This document shows positions 80-54,578 of a stretch of 64,000 bases of DNA, one piece after another. The position numbers and the translations under genes are program-made. Every line of letters begins with the position of its first letter. The stretch's first letter is position 1. The DNA comes from Acidovorax sp. 107. GTDB lineage: Bacteria; Pseudomonadota; Gammaproteobacteria; Burkholderiales; Burkholderiaceae_C. The notes below the pieces were generated by a model, which saw only the letters and a program-made list of their open reading frames with translations, did no database searches and had not been told where the DNA came from. Where the stretch lies: assembly GCF_003058055.1 (NCBI RefSeq), contig NZ_QBTZ01000001.1:560501-624500 (forward strand), written 5' to 3'.

Positions 80-142
80 ACTCCTGATTTGATAGCTGCA
101 AGCGCAATATCCACTAGCGCTTGCGGCATTTTTTGCTTCAAA
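80..142 (+). repeat. Dispersed repeat, copy A
   Basis: The core GATAGCTGCAAGCGC, then CACTAGCGCTTGCGGC and a T-rich tail ending TTCAAA, match the element found ten more times in this window. The arms GCTGCAAGCGC (95-105) and GCGCTTGCGGC (117-127) can pair with one G-U. It lies just downstream of the TRAP large permease gene, between convergent genes, so it may also help end transcription. Confidence 0.75.
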
Positions 143-1465: not shown

Positions 1466-2035
1466 TCACTGGCGTGAGGCCGTGGGCGCGGGGGCTGTGT
1501 GCGGCAGCTGGCTGCCCACGGCGGCCAGTTCTTCGGATTCGGCGATCTGCACCAGCTCGCTGTCTGGCATTTGCCCCGACACGATGCGCCACAGGTCCAG
1601 CGCCAGCAGCAGGCCAGCCGCCACGGCAAACACCACGCCGGACGCATAAAAGATGGCCATGGATGCGCCGGTGACCGGTGCATCCACATCCCAGTTGATG
1701 CGCGCCTGCGCCAGTGCGCCGCTGAACAGCAGCCAGGTGCACCAGATCATCAGCGCGTAGCTCAGGGCCAGGCAAATGCGCTGGCCTAGCGGCGGCAGGC
1801 GCGCCAGCAGAAAGTCCGTGCCCAGGTGGCCCCGCTCGCGCACCGCCACGATGGCGCCCAGAAAGGTGATCCACACAAACAGCCAGCGCGAGACCTCCTC
1901 GCTGATGGCAATGCCGGAGTTGAACGCATAGCGCAGCACCACGTTGCCGAACACCATGGCCACCATCACGGCCAGCGCGAGCGCGATGAGCAGGTTGATC
2001 CAGCGGCAGCAACGGTCGATGAAGGCATTGAGCAT
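1466..2035 (-). CDS. dctQ: TRAP transporter small permease (DctQ family)
   Basis: The 189-aa protein has four predicted membrane helices (about residues 13-35, 47-65, 88-108 and 130-155), as in DctQ subunits that pair with DctM. A run like RWLFVWITFLGA in the second helix region is typical of the family. It lies between the FAH-family enzyme gene and dctM, spaced as in one operon. The C-terminal tail beyond about residue 160 is hydrophilic and unremarkable. Confidence 0.9.
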   Translation of the reverse strand: MLNAFIDRCCRWINLLIALALAVMVAMVFGNVVLRYAFNSGIAISEEVSRWLFVWITFLGAIVAVRERGHLGTDFLLARLPPLGQRICLALSYALMIWCTWLLFSGALAQARINWDVDAPVTGASMAIFYASGVVFAVAAGLLLALDLWRIVSGQMPDSELVQIAESEELAAVGSQLPHTAPAPTASRQ

Positions 2036-2062
2036 CGTTGTCTCCTGTTTTCTTTTTGCGCC

Positions 2063-3292
2063 TCAGAGCACCGCGCCCTGCAGCAGCCCGCGCTGCGCCA
2101 GGTTGGCCATGAAGGCGCGCAGCCCAAATCGCCAGGGCGGCGCGGCCTCGCTGTGCGCCACGCGGTTGTGCAGGCCGCCCAGCCAGGCGCTCTGGATGGA
2201 CACCAGGTCGCCCAGGTGGTGGGTGAAGCCGCCGCCGGGCTGGTCGCGGTCTTCAATGGGCGCGAACAGCGTGCCCATGAACAGCATGAACCCATCCGGG
2301 TACTGGTGCGCGGCCAGCGTCTGCGCCACCAGGTCGGTGGGGTCGCGGCTGATGCTGGCCATGGTGTTGATGCCGCGCAGCTCGAAGCCGTCTACGCCCG
2401 CCACGCGCAGGTGTACCGTCTCATTGCGCACCTGTTCCAGCCCGAAGCTCGCGTCGAACAGGCGGATGAACGGGCCCAGTGCGCACGAGGCGTTGTTATC
2501 CTTGGCCTTGCCCAGCAGCAGGGCGCTGCGGCCTTCGATGTCGCGCAGGTTCACGTCGTTGCCCAGCGTGGCGCCCACGATCTGGCCCCGGCTGTTCACG
2601 GCCAGCACCACCTCGGGCTCGGGGTTGTTCCAAGCCGAATCGGAGCGGATGCCGATGTCATCACCACAGCCCACAGAGGCCAGCACCGGCGCCTTGGTGA
2701 ACACCTCGGCGTCGGGGCCGATGCCCACCTCCAGGTATTGCGACCACAGGCCTTTTTCCTGCAGCAGCGCCTTCAGGCGCATCGCCTCGGGCGAGCCGGG
2801 GCGGATGTCCGCTAAGTTTTGACCGATGAGGCCGATCACCTGACTGCGCAGGCCCTGCGCCCGGGTGGCGTCGCCGCGCGCCTGCTCCTCGATCACGCGC
2901 TCGATCAGGCTGGCAGCAAAGGTCACGCCCGCCGCCTTGACCACCTGCAGGTCGCACGGTGCCAGCAGCCAGGGGCGTGCGGCGTCGCGCGCGCCGGGTT
3001 GGCTGTTGGCCAGCAGGTCGTCCACGCTGCACAGGTACTGGCCCGTGGCGGTGCGCGCAGCCTCGGCCGGTGCCAGGGTGTCCAGCAGCGTGCTCATGGT
3101 GGGGAAGTGCGCGCTCAGGTCGAACACGCCTTCGGGCCGCAGTGCGACCACCGCAGGGCCAGGAACGGCGCCACTGGGTGCCCACACGCGGCCGACCAGC
3201 GTGCCTTGCAGGTCGTCGTCGGGAAGCACTTGCAATGTGGCGTTGGGCGCACGGGCCCGTTCGGCAACTGCTGCTGCCGTCATGTTGTTCAT
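2063..3292 (-). CDS. xylX: Fumarylacetoacetate-hydrolase family protein, XylX-like 2-keto-3-deoxy-sugar-acid dehydratase
   Basis: The 409-aa protein has the C-terminal FAH fold: E225 and E227 in NPEPEVVL and D246 in GNDVNLRD are the expected metal ligands. The N-terminal half resembles Caulobacter XylX, which dehydrates 2-keto-3-deoxy-D-xylonate in the Weimberg pathway. The adjacent XylD-like dehydratase would supply that substrate, so the pair fits oxidative pentose catabolism. AAGGA lies six bases before the ATG at 3292, which favours this start over the ATG nine bases inside. L-arabinonate or another aldonate is an alternative substrate. Confidence 0.8.
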   Translation of the reverse strand: MNNMTAAAVAERARAPNATLQVLPDDDLQGTLVGRVWAPSGAVPGPAVVALRPEGVFDLSAHFPTMSTLLDTLAPAEAARTATGQYLCSVDDLLANSQPGARDAARPWLLAPCDLQVVKAAGVTFAASLIERVIEEQARGDATRAQGLRSQVIGLIGQNLADIRPGSPEAMRLKALLQEKGLWSQYLEVGIGPDAEVFTKAPVLASVGCGDDIGIRSDSAWNNPEPEVVLAVNSRGQIVGATLGNDVNLRDIEGRSALLLGKAKDNNASCALGPFIRLFDASFGLEQVRNETVHLRVAGVDGFELRGINTMASISRDPTDLVAQTLAAHQYPDGFMLFMGTLFAPIEDRDQPGGGFTHHLGDLVSIQSAWLGGLHNRVAHSEAAPPWRFGLRAFMANLAQRGLLQGAVL

Positions 3293-3345
3293 GGAAAGTC
3301 CTTCGAAAAAATCCGGGCGGGCGCCGGTGGCCCACCTGGTCGTTG

Positions 3346-5127
3346 TCAGTGGTTGTGGCGTGGCGTCTTTTCAGAAATGCGCTGAAATTCCAGCGCAAAG
3401 TCCAGCGTGGCGCCGTCGGCCAGCTGCCCGGTTTTCTCGCGGTACAGCGCTTCCCACGGCGACTGGCTCGCGGGCACGGGTGGGGCGGGCAGGTCGCGCT
3501 TGCGGCGTGCGATCTCTTCGGGGGCGACCAGCGCATCGCAGCGCCCGGTGTTCAGGTCGATGCGGATCGTGTCGCCGCTTTGCAGCCAACTCAGCCCTCC
3601 GCCCACGGCGCTTTCGGGCGATGCGTTGAGGATGGACGGGCTGTCTGCCGTGCCCGACTGGCGCCCGTCGCCCAGTGTGGGCAGCGTGTTGATGCCGCGC
3701 CGGATCAGCGCGTCCGGCGGCTGCATGTTCACCACCTCGGCCGAGCCCGGCCAGCCGATGGGGCCGGCGCCGCGCATCACCAGGATGCAGCCTTCGTCGA
3801 TATCGAGCGCCGGGTCGTTGATGCGCGCGTGGTAGTCGTCTGCGCCCTCGAACACCACGGCGCGGGCTTCGAAGATGCCCTCCTGCCCCGGGCGGCTGAG
3901 ATAGCGCTGGCGGAAGGCTTCGGAGATCACCGAGGTCTTCATGATCCCGAAGTCGAACAGGTTGCCGCTGAGCACCATGAAGCCGGCCTTGTGCATCAGC
4001 GGATTGCTGAACGGGCGGATCACCTCGCGGTCATGGGTCTCGCGGCCTTGCAGGTTTTCGCCCACCGTCTTGCCGGTCACGCTGGCGCAGTCGGCATGCA
4101 GTTTGCCTGCCTGCTGCAGCTCCCACATTAGCGCGGGCACGCCACCAGCGCGGAAGAAGCGCTCGCCCAGAAACTGTCCAGCAGGCTGCATGTTCAGCAG
4201 CAGCGGCAGGTCGTAGGCGTGGTCGGTCCAGTCCTGTGCATCGAGCTGTACGCCCGCGTGGCGCGCCATGGCCATGATGTGCACCTGCGCATTGCTGCTG
4301 CCGCCGGCCACGCTGACGACCGACAACGCGTTCAAGAAGCTCTCTCGCGTCAGGATGCGCGAGGGGCGCAGGTCTTCGTACGCCATCTCCACGATGCGCC
4401 GCCCGGTCTCGTACGCCATCTGCCCGCGCTCGCGGTAGGGCGCGGGAATGGCCGCGCAGCCGGGCAGTGACAGGCCCAGCGCCTCCGCCACCGCGTTCAT
4501 GGTGGAGGCCGTGCCCATGGTGTTGCAGTGCCCGGCGGAGGGCGCGCTGTTGCAAGCGCGCTGCAAAAACTCTTCCTCGTCGATCTCGCCCGCCGCGAGC
4601 TGGCGGCGGCTGCGCCAGATGACGGTGCCCGAGCCCACCAGCTGCCCTTCGTGCCAGCCGTCGAGCATCGGCCCGCCAGAGAGCACGATGGCCGGAATGT
4701 CAACGGTGGATGCCGCCATGACGCCCGCGGGCGTGGTCTTGTCGCAGCCCGTGGTCAGCACCACCGCGTCGATGGGGTAGCCGTACAAGATCTCTACCAA
4801 GCCCAGGTAAGCCAGGTTGCGGTCCAGCGCGGCCGTGGGGCGGCGGCAGTTTTCAAAGATGGGGTGGACGGGGAACTCCATCGGAATGCCGCCCGCATCG
4901 CGGATGCCGTCGCGCACGCGGCGCGCCAGGTCCAGGTGGATGCGGTTGCAGGGCGACAGGTCGCTGCCCGTCTGCGCAATGCCAATGATGGGCCGGCCCG
5001 AGCGCAGCTCTTCGGGCGTCAGCCCGTAGTTCATGAACCGCTCCAGGTACAGCGCGGTCATGTCCGAGCGCTCGGGCGCGGCAAACCATTCGCGGGAGCG
5101 GAAGGGGCGGCGGGGTGTTTTTGTCAT
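3346..5127 (-). CDS. xylD: IlvD/Edd family sugar-acid dehydratase, probable D-xylonate dehydratase
   Basis: The 593-aa protein belongs to the IlvD/Edd dehydratases, which use an Fe-S cluster and Mg to remove water from sugar acids. Cluster cysteines are C60 (SDLSPCN), C128 (TTGCDKT) and C201 (GHCNTMG). The start TPRRPFRSREWF and the following block closely resemble, from memory, the pentonate dehydratase branch that includes Caulobacter XylD rather than branched-chain amino acid IlvD. An upstream TTG at 5145 would add six residues; the ATG at 5127 is preferred. It is the second gene of the cluster, before the XylX-like gene. L-arabinonate activity cannot be excluded. Confidence 0.85.
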   Translation of the reverse strand: MTKTPRRPFRSREWFAAPERSDMTALYLERFMNYGLTPEELRSGRPIIGIAQTGSDLSPCNRIHLDLARRVRDGIRDAGGIPMEFPVHPIFENCRRPTAALDRNLAYLGLVEILYGYPIDAVVLTTGCDKTTPAGVMAASTVDIPAIVLSGGPMLDGWHEGQLVGSGTVIWRSRRQLAAGEIDEEEFLQRACNSAPSAGHCNTMGTASTMNAVAEALGLSLPGCAAIPAPYRERGQMAYETGRRIVEMAYEDLRPSRILTRESFLNALSVVSVAGGSSNAQVHIMAMARHAGVQLDAQDWTDHAYDLPLLLNMQPAGQFLGERFFRAGGVPALMWELQQAGKLHADCASVTGKTVGENLQGRETHDREVIRPFSNPLMHKAGFMVLSGNLFDFGIMKTSVISEAFRQRYLSRPGQEGIFEARAVVFEGADDYHARINDPALDIDEGCILVMRGAGPIGWPGSAEVVNMQPPDALIRRGINTLPTLGDGRQSGTADSPSILNASPESAVGGGLSWLQSGDTIRIDLNTGRCDALVAPEEIARRKRDLPAPPVPASQSPWEALYREKTGQLADGATLDFALEFQRISEKTPRHNH

Positions 5128-7947: not shown

Positions 7948-8086
7948 GCAGACATCGGCGTTCTGCACACCCCGGAGCCCCAGAAGCCGCCACTGCCAGT
8001 GCAGGCAATCGCCTGCGCGACGGCGTGCTGCTTGCCCGCCGCCTAAAATCCCGCGGTCGGCTCCGAATGTCCTTCAGGGCCGACAG

Positions 8087-8253
8087 CGTTCTCAGGGCGG
8101 GGCGGAATTCCCCACCGGCGGTATTTGTTGGCTGGAAAGCCCGCAACAGCCCGCGAGCGCCTGCGGTGCCGTTTTTCGGAACAGGCCTGCAGGGTCAGCA
8201 GATCTGGTGCGATGCCAGAGCCGACGGTCACAGTCCGGATGAAAGAGATCGCG
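8087..8253 (+). promoter_or_regulatory. FMN riboswitch (RFN element)
   Basis: The hallmark RFN blocks are present in order: TCTCAGGGCGGGG, ATTCCCCACCGGCGGTA, AGCCCGCGAGCG, GGTCAGCAGATCTGGTG, CCAGAGCCGACGGTCACAGT and GGATGAAAGAGA. The closing stem pairs GCGTTCTC with GAGATCGC. FMN binding to this aptamer normally lowers expression of riboflavin genes. The next gene is ribH, starting about 150 bases after the aptamer. The intervening sequence has no obvious U-tailed terminator, so control could be at translation. Confidence 0.95.
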
Positions 8254-8405
8254 ATACCCACAGCACCCGCCATGGGTGGCTGGGCCTTTGGCGTTTGCTT
8301 GCGTGCTTTTTGCCCGCTGGTCAGCGCCGTGAGGCCTGCGCCGCCCTGTGCAGGCGCCGTGCTCGCGCGCGCCCTGATTCTGGTACGACCTGTTTTGAGG
8401 AACCC

Positions 8406-8968: not shown

Positions 8969-9033
8969 TTGCTACTATTTATGTAGCTATTGCCGCATGA
9001 TGCACTAGCGCTTCAGGTCGATTCGGCTTGAAA
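8969..9033 (+). repeat. Dispersed repeat, copy B
   Basis: GCTACTATTTATGTAGCTATTG, then GCATGATGCACTAGCGCTTCAGG and a tail ending GGCTTGAAA, align with the other copies. It fills the space between the convergent ribH and chemoreceptor genes. Confidence 0.75.
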
Positions 9034-12210: not shown

Positions 12211-12265
12211 TTACTATGAAATTAATAGCTGTCAGCGCATGATGGACTAGCGCTACAAGGCAAAA
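12211..12265 (+). repeat. Dispersed repeat, copy C
   Basis: TTACTATGAAATTAATAGCT, then GTCAGCGCATGATGGACTAGCGCTACAAGGC, match the family core. Its ATAGCT end faces the CaiB-type gene and stops about eight bases before that start codon, so it forms the 5' leader. Confidence 0.75.
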
Positions 12266-17350: not shown

Positions 17351-17417
17351 GTTTTTGAATCAAAATGGCTGCTAGCGCTATTTGAATATGCCTCAGTAGC
17401 TACATAAAAGATAGCAT
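17351..17417 (-). repeat. Dispersed repeat, copy D
   Basis: On the minus strand it reads TGCTATCTTTTATGTAGCTA, then GAGGCATATTCAAATAGCGCTAGCAGCCATTTTGATTCAAAA. It is the closest match to the copy inside hemD. Its GTAGCT end abuts the ATG of the Nudix gene. Confidence 0.8.
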
Positions 17418-18007: not shown

Positions 18008-18235
18008 ATGGACATTCACAAAGAAATCGACACCCGGGGCCTGAACTGCCCCTTGCCCATCCTCAAGGCCAAGAAGGCGTTGTCGGACATGGCCAGCGGC
18101 CAGCTGCTCAAGGTGGTGGCCACCGACAACGGATCGCTGCGCGATTTTCAGGCGTTTGCCAAGCAGACCGGCAACGAGCTGGTGGAGCAGCGGACAGTGG
18201 GCGAAGAGTACATCCACGTTCTGCGTCGCCGTTGA
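18008..18235 (+). CDS. tusA: TusA family sulfur carrier protein
   Basis: The 75-aa protein has the TusA fold with the active cysteine in GLNCPLPILKAKK near residue 13, the CPxP motif that carries a persulfide for tRNA thiolation or other sulfur transfer. AAGGA (17994-17998) is nine bases before the ATG at 18008, which favours it over the ATG at 18002. It directly follows the Nudix gene. The window gives no hint of which relay it serves. Confidence 0.88.
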   Translation: MDIHKEIDTRGLNCPLPILKAKKALSDMASGQLLKVVATDNGSLRDFQAFAKQTGNELVEQRTVGEEYIHVLRRR

Positions 18236-18298
18236 AAGTAAAAAAGCTGCCAGTGCCTGTCAAACAAGCGCTGGGAGCTATTGATTTTGTAGTTTGGC
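18236..18298 (-). repeat. Dispersed repeat, copy E
   Basis: On the minus strand it reads ACTACAAAATCAATAGCT, then CCCAGCGCTTGTTTGACAGGCACTGGCAGC and TTTTTTACTTTC, matching the family. AGCTGCCAGTGCCTG and CAAGCGCTGGGAGCT can fold into a hairpin between the convergent tusA and galU genes, so it may end transcription. Confidence 0.75.
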
Positions 18299-24455: not shown

Positions 24456-24522
24456 TTGCTATCTTTTGTATAGCTGCTGGGGCAAGGGGATGTGGCGCTT
24501 CAGCGCTGTAGGGCCAAAAATC
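24455..24522 (+). repeat. Dispersed repeat, copy F
   Basis: TTGCTATCTTTTGTATAGCTGCTGGGGC at the front matches copy D; the centre has diverged (GCGCTTCAGCGCTGTAGGGC) and the tail is CCAAAAATCCC. It starts at the stop codon of the M48 gene. Confidence 0.65.
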
Positions 24523-29070: not shown

Positions 29071-30204
29071 TCAACGCCCGGCGGCTGCAGTGGCCAGTGC
29101 AGCCAGGGTTTCGTCCAGGCGCGGCAGCTCGGCCGCCTTCATGCTGGCCTGTGCCTGCTGCAGGATGGAGGCCACGTTCTGCGTGCGGCGCGAAGCGGGG
29201 TCGAAATACTTGTTGAGCGCGGCGGTGGCTGCTGCCAAATCGGCGCGGGCCGACTCGAACTGGCGGGCCAGGATGCCCAGGCGCGCATTGAGTAGCTTGA
29301 ACTTGAGGTTCTCACGCAGGAAGAAGGTCTGCTCGGGGGCCAGCAAGATGGCCTCGGGCTGGTCGATGCGGCTCACGCGCACCAGGCTGCGGGCTTCGTC
29401 GCGCACCACCTCCCAACTGCGCTGCAGGGCCGCCTGCCACCAGGCCAGGCCGTCGGTGGGGGCGGGGGCACTGCCAGGCGCTGCGGGGCCGGTGGACAAG
29501 CGCTTGGTCGAGGCGGCCTGGGCCACGGCATTGAGCACGGGCAGGTCGTCCACCTGGCGCACCAGGTCGTCCAGGCGGGCCAGCAGGCCAGCGGTGTCCG
29601 TCACGGTGGCACGGGTCAGGCGGTCCAGGTCGCGGCCGATGGCACGCTGCACCGGGGCCAAGCGGGGTTGGGCGGAGCGCTCGATGCGCTGGTTGGCGCT
29701 CTTGAGCGCGGCCACCAGGGGCTCCAGGCTGCCTGTGAGCTGGGCCTGCTGTTGCGCCAGCCGGATGGCCGATTCAATGTCCACCACCAGGTTTTCGTCG
29801 CGCGAGCGCGACAGGCTTTGCATGAGTTCTTCGAGCTGGCTGCGCTGCAAGGCCACCTCGCTCACGCGAGCTTCGGCCACCGACAGGCGAGCGGCCGTGT
29901 CGCGCACCTGCTCTTCGGCCTGGCGGGCCATGGTGCGGGCCTCGATGGCCAAGGCCCCTGAGTCGGCCGATTGCCGGGCCAGCTGCTCCTGGATGGCGCT
30001 GAGCTTTTGCCACAGCAGGCCGCTGCTGACCAGCGCGGCCACCGCCACGGCACCCACCAGCAAGGTCGTGGCGCCACCTCTGCCAGTGGCGGCAGCGGGC
30101 GCGGCAGGAGAGGGGGCGGGGCTCACGGCTGGCGCGCTCACGGCGGCGGCCACAGGGGCTGCTGGGGGTGTGGGCGGTAGATCGTGAGGGGACGCAGAAC
30201 TCAT
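29071..30204 (-). CDS. hemX: HemX-type protein
   Basis: The 377-aa protein has a proline- and alanine-rich cytoplasmic N-terminus (residues 1-42), one membrane helix at about 46-64 and a coiled-coil domain with many Q, R and E residues. This matches the HemX family, often mislabelled as a methyltransferase and always near hemD. The start at 30204 overlaps the hemD stop by ATGA, so the two are translationally coupled. An upstream extension of the frame has no similarity. Confidence 0.88.
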   Translation of the reverse strand: MSSASPHDLPPTPPAAPVAAAVSAPAVSPAPSPAAPAAATGRGGATTLLVGAVAVAALVSSGLLWQKLSAIQEQLARQSADSGALAIEARTMARQAEEQVRDTAARLSVAEARVSEVALQRSQLEELMQSLSRSRDENLVVDIESAIRLAQQQAQLTGSLEPLVAALKSANQRIERSAQPRLAPVQRAIGRDLDRLTRATVTDTAGLLARLDDLVRQVDDLPVLNAVAQAASTKRLSTGPAAPGSAPAPTDGLAWWQAALQRSWEVVRDEARSLVRVSRIDQPEAILLAPEQTFFLRENLKFKLLNARLGILARQFESARADLAAATAALNKYFDPASRRTQNVASILQQAQASMKAAELPRLDETLAALATAAAGR

Positions 30205-31028
30205 GCGCCCGATTCTATCGAGGCCACCACGTCTTCTAGCGCTGGACGGCATTCCCTCACCGTCCCAAAGCCCGCTGCACGGGCCGCTTCGGCGATGCGC
30301 GGGTGGGTGGCCAGAGCCTGCGCAGCGCCCCAGTGCTGGCCCGGCAGGGTCTGGGCCAGGTGGGCTACCGCCTCGGAGCTGCTCAGCAGCCAGATGGAGC
30401 CGTCTTGCGTCGCCTGTTGCGCCAACGCCACCTCGTGCGCCGCAAAGTGGGGCGCGCCACGTTGGTAGGCCACCACAAACTCCACCTGGCCACCCCGTGC
30501 CTCGATCTGTTGGGCCAGCCAGTCACGGCCATTGCCTTGGGGGGATTCGTGCGCACCTTGCGGCGTGGCCGAGCGCCCCCGCACGATCAGCACGCGGTCG
30601 CCGGGCCGCACCTGGGGGGCCACCTGTTGCCACAGGGCTTCGGAGTCGAACTGCGGGGCATCTGGCGCGGGCCCATCGATGGCGCTGCGCGGAACGCCCA
30701 CCTGCTCCAGCGCGCGGGCCGTGCCGGGGCCGGGTGCCCATGCTCTTGTTTTTGTAGCTACAAAGGCATAAAAATCCGGCGCATCAGGGCGATTTTGATC
30801 AAAAAAGTGCACCACGGCGTTGCCACTGACAAACATCAGGGCGCGGTAAGCACTGGGATTGGCGCGGGCGGCGTCCAGGGCCCGCAACGCGGCAGCGTCG
30901 GTGCAGGGGCCTATCGCAATCAGGGGCAGCGCCACGGCCTGAATGCCGTGGGCGCCCAGCTGCTCCACCCAGTGGGCGGCTTCGCGGTTGGGCCGCGTGA
31001 CGATCACCCGGGGGGCTGCTGCGGCCAT
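30201..31028 (-). CDS. hemD: Uroporphyrinogen-III synthase
   Basis: The 275-aa enzyme closes hydroxymethylbilane to uroporphyrinogen III. Two domains are visible, with VIVTRPNREA at 8-17, FVSGNAVVHFF at 66-76 and GPGTARAL near 100-107. Residues 75-96 are encoded by a copy of the dispersed repeat (30743-30806) with rare AT-rich codons (AAA, ACA, AGA, GTA), inserted in frame between blocks that should be closer together. It lies one base after hemC and overlaps hemX by four. Residue conservation is weak in this family, so the activity is inferred from context. Confidence 0.87.
   Translation of the reverse strand: MAAAAPRVIVTRPNREAAHWVEQLGAHGIQAVALPLIAIGPCTDAAALRALDAARANPSAYRALMFVSGNAVVHFFDQNRPDAPDFYAFVATKTRAWAPGPGTARALEQVGVPRSAIDGPAPDAPQFDSEALWQQVAPQVRPGDRVLIVRGRSATPQGAHESPQGNGRDWLAQQIEARGGQVEFVVAYQRGAPHFAAHEVALAQQATQDGSIWLLSSSEAVAHLAQTLPGQHWGAAQALATHPRIAEAARAAGFGTVRECRPALEDVVASIESGA
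30743..30806 (+). repeat. Dispersed repeat, copy G, in frame inside hemD
   Basis: TGCTCTTGTTTTTGTAGCTAC, GGCATA, GCGCATCAGGGCGATTTTGATCAAAA align block by block with copy D (TGCTATCTTTTATGTAGCTAC, GGCATA, GCGCTAGCAGCCATTTTGATTCAAAA). A 14-base perfect palindrome TTTGTAGCTACAAA lies at 30751-30764. On the coding strand it encodes hemD residues 75-96 with no stop. Confidence 0.75.
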
Positions 31029-38577: not shown

Positions 38578-38644
38578 TCGCTATCTAATTGATAGCTATC
38601 TCGGCAATATGCACTAGCGCATTGGGCGCTTTGGGCTCAAAAGA
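38578..38644 (+). repeat. Dispersed repeat, copy H
   Basis: TCGCTATCTAATTGATAGCTAT, GCAATATGCACTAGCGC and GGCGCTTTGGGCTCAAAA match copy A closely. It lies between the FlgO-like terminator and the convergent flhC gene. Confidence 0.8.
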
Positions 38645-41836: not shown

Positions 41837-41877
41837 CGGGTTGTGATCTTTATGGTTTGCACCAGCGGTGCAGAAAT

Positions 41878-41925
41878 GAAAATAGCTGCCAGCGCTTATT
41901 TTTTAAGCACTGGCAGCTATTGTAA
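41878..41925. repeat. Dispersed repeat, copy I, near-perfect hairpin
   Basis: AATAGCTGCCAGCGCTTA (41881-41898) and TAAGCACTGGCAGCTATT (41904-41921) pair over 18 bases with one G-U, around TTTTT. It lies between the Rieske oxygenase gene and the DMT gene, both on the minus strand, and could act as a terminator or RNA-stabilising hairpin. Confidence 0.85.
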
Positions 41926-41976
41926 TGAGAGCAGGCCATGGTGGGCCTGCAGATTGGCGGGGTTTTGCCGCCGTAT

Positions 41977-44643: not shown

Positions 44644-44711
44644 TCAATCAATGTCCAAATGCCTGCTAGTGCTTGAATCTATTGCGCTGGTAGCTATCAA
44701 AAGAATAGTCA
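44644..44711 (-). repeat. Dispersed repeat, copy J
   Basis: On the minus strand it reads TTGACTATTCTTTTGATAGCT, then ACCAGCGCAATAGATTCAAGCACTAGCAGGC and ATTTGGACATTGA, matching the family. Its ATAGCT end faces dxs and reaches the ATG, so it forms the dxs leader. Confidence 0.8.
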
Positions 44712-53754: not shown

Positions 53755-54578
53755 CGAGTTTTAGGTCTTTTCGCGCAGTAGCGCTAGTGTCCAAAGCGGT
53801 GGCAGCTATCGTTTTGGTAGCGTCTGGTTCTGCATTCGCGCAGAGCATCACCATGGCTTCCACCACCTCCACCGAGCAGTCGGGCCTGTTTGGCTACCTG
53901 CTGCCCGAGTTCAAGAAGTCCAGCGGCCTCGACATCAAGGTGGTGGCGCTGGGCACCGGCCAGGCGCTCGACATGGCACGCCGGGGTGACGCCGACGTGC
54001 TGTTTGTGCACGACCAGGTGGCCGAAGAAAAGTTTGTGGCCGATGGCTGGGGCGTGAAGCGCTACCCCGTGATGTACAACGACTTCATCCTCATCGGCCC
54101 CAAGAACGACCCGGCCGGCACCAAAGGCAAGGACATCGTGCAGGCGCTGCAGAAGCTGGCCGCCACCAACGGCAACTTCATCTCGCGCGGCGACAAGAGC
54201 GGCACCCACGCGGCCGAGCTGCGCTACTGGAAGCTGGCCGGTGCCGAGGCCGCCAAGGGCAGCGGCTACAAGGAATGCGGCTGCGGCATGGGGCCCGCGC
54301 TGAACATCGCAGCTTCGAGCGGCGCCTACGTGCTGGCCGACCGTGGCACCTGGCTCAATTTCAAGAACCGCGCGGACCTGGCCATTCTGGTCGAGGGCGA
54401 CACCAAGCTCTTCAACCAGTACGGCGTGATGGTCGTGAACCCCGCCAAGCACCCGCATGTGAAGGTGCAGGACGCGCAGAAGTTTGTGGACTGGGTGGTG
54501 TCGCCCGTTGGCCAGCAAGCCATTGCGGGCTACAAGATCGGCGGCGAGCAGCTGTTCTTCCCCAACGCCACGCAGTGA
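53751..54578 (+). CDS. tupA: Tungstate-binding protein TupA
   Basis: The 275-aa periplasmic binding protein has the oxyanion motif ASTTSTEQSGLF at about 36-47, seen in TupA. The signal peptide ends near AFA-QS at residue 30. Codons 5-25 lie inside a copy of the dispersed repeat, in minus orientation, and use many rare codons (AGG, CTA, GTA, TTT, AAA, TTG), so the leader is at least partly repeat-derived. It overlaps tupC by four bases and is followed by a molybdate-binding lipoprotein gene. Confidence 0.93.
   Translation: MTSFRSFRAVALVSKAVAAIVLVASGSAFAQSITMASTTSTEQSGLFGYLLPEFKKSSGLDIKVVALGTGQALDMARRGDADVLFVHDQVAEEKFVADGWGVKRYPVMYNDFILIGPKNDPAGTKGKDIVQALQKLAATNGNFISRGDKSGTHAAELRYWKLAGAEAAKGSGYKECGCGMGPALNIAASSGAYVLADRGTWLNFKNRADLAILVEGDTKLFNQYGVMVVNPAKHPHVKVQDAQKFVDWVVSPVGQQAIAGYKIGGEQLFFPNATQ
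53761..53826 (-). repeat. Dispersed repeat, copy L, encoding the TupA signal peptide
   Basis: On the minus strand it reads GCTACCAAAACGATAGCTGCC, then ACCGCTTTGGACACTAGCGCTACTGCGC and GAAAAGACCTAA, which aligns with copies A and C. On the coding strand it supplies the core SFRAVALVSKAVAAIVLVAS. Confidence 0.75.

Follow-up and report, generated by a model that had tools for sequence, protein, structure and literature searches.

An in-frame copy of a REP-like repeat in hemD of Acidovorax sp. 107 and its relation to repeat dialects of the Comamonadaceae

Background

The closest described systems are the REP and REPIN sequences with RAYT of enterobacteria, Pseudomonas and Stenotrophomonas, which the repeat reported here resembles as a high-copy short palindrome lying mainly in the gaps between tandem or convergent genes, with a TAG-like end that may correspond to the REP tag. 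The Rickettsia palindromic elements (RPE) are palindromic repeats that reside within protein-coding genes. According to one report, some REPs are also located inside open reading frames, uvrA included, and the RPE are named there as well (PMC3733652). Two further parallels are the co-evolution of RAYT with REP (PMC2817692) and the persistence of REPINs (PMC8049555). The DNA uptake sequences (DUS) of the Neisseriaceae are read by ComP. They are about 10–12 bases long, with counts such as 1543–3770 per genome, and form genome-wide dialects which differ between species, with intragenic copies that have amino-acid consequences (PMC3630211). The BRE (Betaproteobacterial repeat element) sequences are found in Comamonadaceae and other Betaproteobacteria, some of them in coding sequences, and are summarized in their description as about 90 bp in length, 69% G+C in Bordetella, partly tandem and present in at most 29 copies (PMC3110155).

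The Comamonadaceae repeat shares with REPs a copy number above 100 per genome and a placement between tandem or convergent, rarely divergent, genes, but with 54–63 bp and a second end hairpin it lies outside the REP length of 20–40 bp, and at none of 20 RAYT-like loci did inverted copies stand on both sides of the gene, a further REP trait. Like the RPE it also occurs in frame in real protein genes; unlike them, its tested positions are common to species and its centre follows the dialect of the genome. With the DUS it has species-specific dialects in common, although its unit is longer (54–63 bp) and rarer. BRE was considered and set aside on the strength of its description, from which the present repeat (54–63 bp, about 40% G+C, far more copies) differs in size, G+C content, copy number and arrangement. 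No recognised description of this repeat or of its hemD copy was found in the openly licensed literature, represented mostly by abstracts, and the accessible text of the REP, RAYT, DUS and REPIN literature surveyed makes no mention of dialect switching at fixed sites in orthologous enzymes.

The repeat copy in hemD

The window, by which is meant the whole stretch of 64,000 nucleotides of Acidovorax sp. 107 that was analysed, contains a hemD gene whose nearest named relatives are those of Acidovorax. A segment of this gene is a genuine copy of the repeat family and is read in frame. The features concerned are:

30201..31028, minus strand: hemD, uroporphyrinogen-III synthase, 275 aa (Pfam HEM4, E 6.3e-24; the ATG start at 31028 is assumed)
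30741..30803, plus strand: REP-like repeat copy in hemD (nhmmer, 28.4 bits, E 4.5e-7, training without hemD)
30760..30784, minus strand: central block, element columns 12–36, dialect-following (identities at eight positions)
30742..30758, minus strand: end hairpin GCTA(T/C)...(A/G)AGC, columns 38–54, with a locus-specific loop (loop identities and the Arg95 codon)

Fifty-six copies, drawn from 464 kb of the bacterium's own genome with hemD masked, were used to train the repeat profile. Its match at 30741–30803 takes in all 63 model positions (28.4 bits; E 4.5e-7, calculated for 464 kb). An earlier seed model, made from seven copies of the window, also matches the segment (E 5.2e-7 in the window alone). 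The copy stands in the canonical repeat orientation and hemD reads its complement, as residues 76–96; this stretch contains no stop and gives FFDQNRPDAPDFYAFVATKTRA, the end hairpin coding for A-T-K-T-R-A with Arg95 specified by AGA. The preliminary description had seen a repeat copy running through hemD in frame and without a stop, which the full-length profile match and the open frame bear out, and its limits of 30743..30806 were correct to within 2–3 bases. It had compared the segment with the copy at 17354–17416 (copy D), to which the gapless identity is 33/54; the copy at 8970 is closer (35/54). Elsewhere, the best gapless matches of copy D are 21/54 on the hemD coding strand and 24/54 on the other strand, and 28/54 in the rest of the window with the known copies left out. 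Among plasmid records the hemD segment found no match.

The AT-rich codons pointed out at the same time are likewise real and derive from the repeat. Of 90 distinct hemD genes, 61 score at least 10 bits with the model, and in these the mean GC3 is 0.32 inside the element (10 conserved columns) versus 0.81 outside it (139 columns). A second patch of low GC3 is formed by codons 271–275 at the 3' end of hemD (window about 30204–30218), and is perhaps the RBS for the gene that follows, the probable ATG of which overlaps the stop codon of hemD.

The repeat family

A total of 58 copies was found in 464 kb of the genome, which extrapolates to roughly 640 in all 5.1 Mb, and many Comamonadaceae genomes hold hundreds, the dialect pattern counts reaching 738 in one of them. 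The unit is 63 bp in the own-genome model and 54 bp over 11 genomes; the own-genome consensus has a G+C content of about 40% (counted by hand). The end next to the palindrome often reads ATAG, and also GTAG, AGAG or GGAG. Besides the hemD copy, the window has the following members:

81..141, plus strand: repeat copy (profile, 51.8 bits)
8970..9032, plus strand: repeat copy, intergenic (profile, synteny, location survey)
12213..12262, plus strand: repeat copy, intergenic (profile, synteny, location survey)
17354..17416, minus strand: repeat copy (copy D), intergenic (profile, synteny, location survey)
18233..18292, minus strand: symmetric repeat copy, intergenic (profile, synteny, centre and loop identities)
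24457..24519, plus strand: degenerate repeat copy, intergenic (profile, synteny)
38580..38641, plus strand: repeat copy, intergenic (profile, synteny, location survey)
41875..41933, minus strand: symmetric repeat copy, without dialect switch (profile, dialect test, identities)
44653..44708, minus strand: repeat copy, intergenic (profile, synteny, location survey)
53761..53821, minus strand: repeat copy (profile, synteny, location survey)

The copies at 41875–41933 and 18233–18292 are nearly symmetric (ATAGCTGCCAGCGCTT...AAGCGCTGGCAGCTAT); the former lacks the dialect switch, and the latter switches weakly. Fifty-six of the 58 copies could be classified by placement as tandem (26), convergent (14), divergent (4) or in a gene (12), using crude gene calls which filed at least the aroE and mmdA-like copies under tandem. 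Eleven genomes contributed 1.26 Mb with 153 copies, of which 31 lie in an open frame that is coding-like on both sides; since some pass on both strands, not all 31 represent real genes. Ten proteins in all were scanned against NCBIfam, and the carriers identified in the bacterium's own genome were AroE, UvrA, GlmU, AnmK and GcvP; equivalog matches from other genomes were to Cca, DapF, XseA and again AroE. The in-frame repeats of the own genome are:

L119:13094-13148: aroE
L113:18697-18747: uvrA
L116:2358-2405: glmU
L115:12493-12544: anmK
L126:18588-18629: gcvP

An Rfam search of the window gave five matches up to E 0.5, none of them on a repeat copy. One is an FMN riboswitch (RF00050, 101 bits) at 8084-8254 on the plus strand.

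Distribution of the hemD element

The 90 distinct hemD genes were drawn from a search of the genus and from GTDB contigs, and the element is in the same phase in the 61 that score at least 10 bits against the own-genome profile. Its consensus reading, FFESN..LAL...AL.AIKTRAW, is common to many genera. Between F66 and P101 the element-bearing genes mostly specify 36 residues, or 39 to 55 where host residues flank the element. An alignment of HemD, the check suggested in the preliminary description, showed that element-free orthologues have a GC-rich loop composed of other residues which is often, not always, shorter (26 to 44 residues over the same interval, often about 31).

The genus set consisted of 43 of the 44 matching genomes, G007 being dropped because its hemD match was split in two and did not include the segment; a second hemD match in G043 was dropped as well. 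The element was called at 20 bits with a matrix trained on these same repeats, and the presence of the family was scored with two different patterns, as a summed A and B dialect count of at least 10 within the genus and an end-hairpin count of at least 4 elsewhere. Thirty-eight of the 43 genomes carry the element, which disposes of the idea that the insert is a local oddity. Across these genomes the hemD score rises with genomic copy number (Spearman 0.84, p 3e-12), and all five with 7 or fewer copies are without a recognisable hemD element.

A search of the wider family matched 244 of 250 genomes. The sample from outside the genus consisted of 89 genomes, roughly one for each genus listed and four of them from another search, and here the element occurs in 34 of the 45 genomes with at least four copies of the end-hairpin pattern and in none of the 44 with fewer. 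A further 20 genomes were hand-picked, mainly from multi-species genera, and are not a random sample. Over all 152 genomes the element is present in 84 of 99 that bear the family (15 lack it) and in 0 of 53 that are free of it; orthologues having the same residues in a family-free genome, which had been named as evidence against a repeat origin, were thus not encountered. One record titled Pantoea sp. 18069 (L091) specifies a HemD of the Comamonadaceae kind, 57% identical to that of the window, and its title or assembly is doubtful.

On a HemD tree calculated with the element columns left out, there are 24 changes of repeat state and 22 of element state. Ten supported independent pairs were available, of which about 6 are concordant, none is opposite and 4 do not differ (median p 0.03). 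In six mixed genera (g1, g3, g121, g172, g186 and g214) the element is always on the repeat-bearing side. In g4 and g155 repeats are present and the hemD site is empty, and of two repeat-bearing genomes in g207 one (G343) has the element and the other (G428) does not. Because many genera possess it at the same site and in the same phase, the hemD element is old here and not a fresh insert, the copy in the window ranking among the more degenerate forms.

Dialects of the repeat centre

Dialect A (GCGCYAGT-N5-ATGC) outnumbers dialect B (AGCGCTT-N7-AAGCGC) in G000, G005, G018 and G033, and B prevails in the majority of the remaining genus genomes with repeats. Dialect C (CGCGCGAC-N-ATCAWG) was counted 26 times in G023, its hemD included, 21 times in G031, 18 in G028, 10 in G010 and 7 in G034, and no more than once in any other genome; it is seen in hemD of G023 and in aroE of G031, G028 and G034. 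When 11 per-genome matrices, with hemD kept out of the training, were cross-scored on the 11 hemD copies, a strong diagonal resulted (permutation p 5e-5). The own matrix was the single best for 4 of 11, and most of the others favoured a genome of the same dialect block.

The A-minus-B score of hemD differs between the 4 dialect-A and 23 dialect-B genomes (Mann-Whitney p 0.003). The aroE copy, which has the opposite orientation to that in hemD and was examined in 30 of the 46 matching genomes, scores +11.6 to +18.9 in 4 genomes of dialect A versus -10.3 to +3.5 in 14 of dialect B (p 6.5e-4); in the repeat-poor G044 and G017, aroE is without the element. When all 43 genomes of the genus are taken together, the log A/B ratio shows no correlation with the A-minus-B score of hemD (Spearman 0.05, p 0.76). 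The dialect signal sits in the contrast between strongly A and strongly B genomes; those of dialect A number four and are closely related to one another.

Exceptions are the A-like hemD copies of G040 (+6.0) and G012 (+2.5) inside B genomes. At the position orthologous to window 8970 (L309-L312), the B genome G016 has an A copy, very like those of A genomes, which may mark a recombined stretch. G002 is mixed, with 45 A and 163 B copies and a RAYT that shares 89-91% identity with its counterparts in the A genomes, and perhaps represents a transitional state.

Fixed positions and switching centres

Ten of the 11 window copies, hemD included, could be followed by synteny in at least one of five genomes of the genus, and all 46 testable positions proved to be occupied at more than 10 bits. 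Copy 81-141 was without synteny in all five genomes and four other copies were without it in G018; 24457 is borderline in G018 and G005 (10-11 bits), and 12213 is reversed in G016. Nine of the 10 positions shift with the dialect (Wilcoxon p 0.004; p 0.008 leaving out hemD), the exception being the symmetric copy at 41875.

At eight positions (the two symmetric copies and the reversed 12213 of G016 were left out), the centres at one position are 0.568 identical across dialects versus 0.62 between different positions of one genome, while for the end loops the identity is 0.692 at the same position across dialects versus 0.451 between positions; the pairs are non-independent and the values descriptive. 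This contrast between centre and loop is the strongest single result. Since the loop is kept across dialects and the centre is genome-like, each site retains its loop by descent and has a centre that follows the genome. A switching centre beside a locus-specific loop argues against re-insertion or replacement of the whole element and points to a process that works locally at the centre, either a co-evolving DNA reader or short-tract conversion.

Codon choice and protein structure

In distinct hemD genes bearing the element, Arg95 is encoded by AGR in 97 of 104, and in unselected genes in 112 of 169; the latter figure is the safer, because the element-bearing calls used a matrix which contained that codon. 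At eight other arginine columns AGR makes up 5 of 778 codons in the element-bearing and 12 of 1315 in the unselected genes. Within the element Arg95 is AGA in 93 of 104, Ala91 is GCT in 102 of 104 and Lys93 is AAA in 74 of 74. Covariation in the central hairpin of hemD is weak, as both-changed cells number 55 where shuffles average 40 (4 of 1000 get as high) but one slid control gives 64.

The AlphaFold model of HemD (50 sequences) has a mean pLDDT of 88, and a Foldseek search returned HemD structures at the top, the best being PDB 4es6 (HemD, E 7.4e-16). The model gives a helix at 69-75, coil at 76-85, a short helix at 86-91 and a strand at 95-97, and its block 81-90 has a mean pLDDT of 58. 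From this layout and the low confidence at 81-90, the hemD segment is predicted to be a poorly fixed loop between helix and strand. The preliminary description had placed it as probable in a surface linker between the two domains. A loop of low confidence is indeed predicted, and the first part of residues 76–96 is coil; the position between helix and strand is not clearly interdomain. We take the segment to lie inside one domain, going by the domain limits of human UROS. That the insert is tolerated agrees with the loop but misses the main point, namely that its centre tracks the genome-wide repeat dialect.

Interpretation

We propose, with a probability of roughly 0.6, that the hemD segment has long resided in the gene as a coding copy of a REP-like family of the Comamonadaceae whose centre is read by a drifting factor. 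The centre would be the site of a sequence-specific trans-acting factor of drifting specificity, and selection on DNA would drag all copies along, those in essential enzymes too; upon loss of the factor or of its use, intergenic and coding copies would erode together. HemD would tolerate such changes because the segment is a loop between helix and strand and point changes leave the frame open. An extension, which we offer tentatively and with more doubt than belief, is that several hundred chromosomal sites are read via a centre of ~25 bp, and that the demand arising from the co-evolution of factor and site dialect is great enough to change residues of HemD, AroE and further essential enzymes along with the intergenic sites. 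If true, this would amount to a DNA-level code overlaid on protein-coding genes.

RAYT was considered as the reader of the sites and fits poorly. A relative of the bacterium's own RAYT-like transposase is present in 241 of the 250 family genomes, repeat-poor ones included, and none was found in the repeat-bearing G486; only 3 of 20 RAYT loci (4 kb each) have an adjoining repeat match (G035, G012 and, weakly, G018). At least one Y1_Tnp protein was detected in 44 of 47 genus genomes. G046 has 37 Y1_Tnp matches, 34 of equal score, which is an IS200-like expansion.

No reader is needed if neutral short-tract gene conversion or template-driven repair homogenises the palindromic centres, with the hemD and aroE copies as passive recipients. 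Gene conversion has reportedly been proposed earlier for REPs, and it accounts for the dialects, for mixed genomes such as G002 and for a homogenisation confined to the centre. We nevertheless think it rather unlikely: centres about 62% alike within a genome are poor substrates for recombination, the symmetric copy at 41875 retains its centre, and conversion alone leaves the wholesale loss of the family along with the hemD copy unexplained. The dialect association might instead reflect shared ancestry, the site having been gained a single time and having drifted with the phylogeny; the A genomes are closely related and the cross-scoring diagonal is block-like, as this would predict. Centres are, however, more alike within a genome (0.62) than at the same position across dialects (0.568), and the supported independent pairs that differ go one way, which makes this account improbable.

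An RPE- or MITE-like mobile element that had inserted in frame, recently and repeatedly, at one hemD site in each lineage, bringing the lineage dialect with it, would suit the in-frame copies in several enzymes and the right junctions, which differ in hemD of some genera (36 versus 39-55 residues). Re-insertion would overwrite loops and move positions, whereas the locus-specific loops of the hemD, aroE and intergenic copies are largely retained across dialects and 46 of 46 testable positions are occupied; we give such insertion little chance. Ordinary protein conservation, in which FFESN..LAL...AIKTRAW is selected in HemD and the likeness in DNA is secondary, has in its favour a motif common to many genera and is in our judgement very improbable, for the synonymous choices at Arg95, Ala91 and Lys93 are repeat-like and run against the codon bias, the residues vary with the dialect, and 53 family-free genomes manage without the element.

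Conclusions

The reading favoured here, a resident coding copy with a centre read by a drifting factor, bears on the biology of the family in several ways. Sister species with and without the repeat family offer a route to a factor that may have been lost alongside it. Shared positions, switching centres and family-free lineages make the retention of a REP-like repeat directly testable. The hemD segment would be a natural and testable case of a loop in essential enzymes that is shaped by a genome-wide DNA repeat and not by the protein alone.
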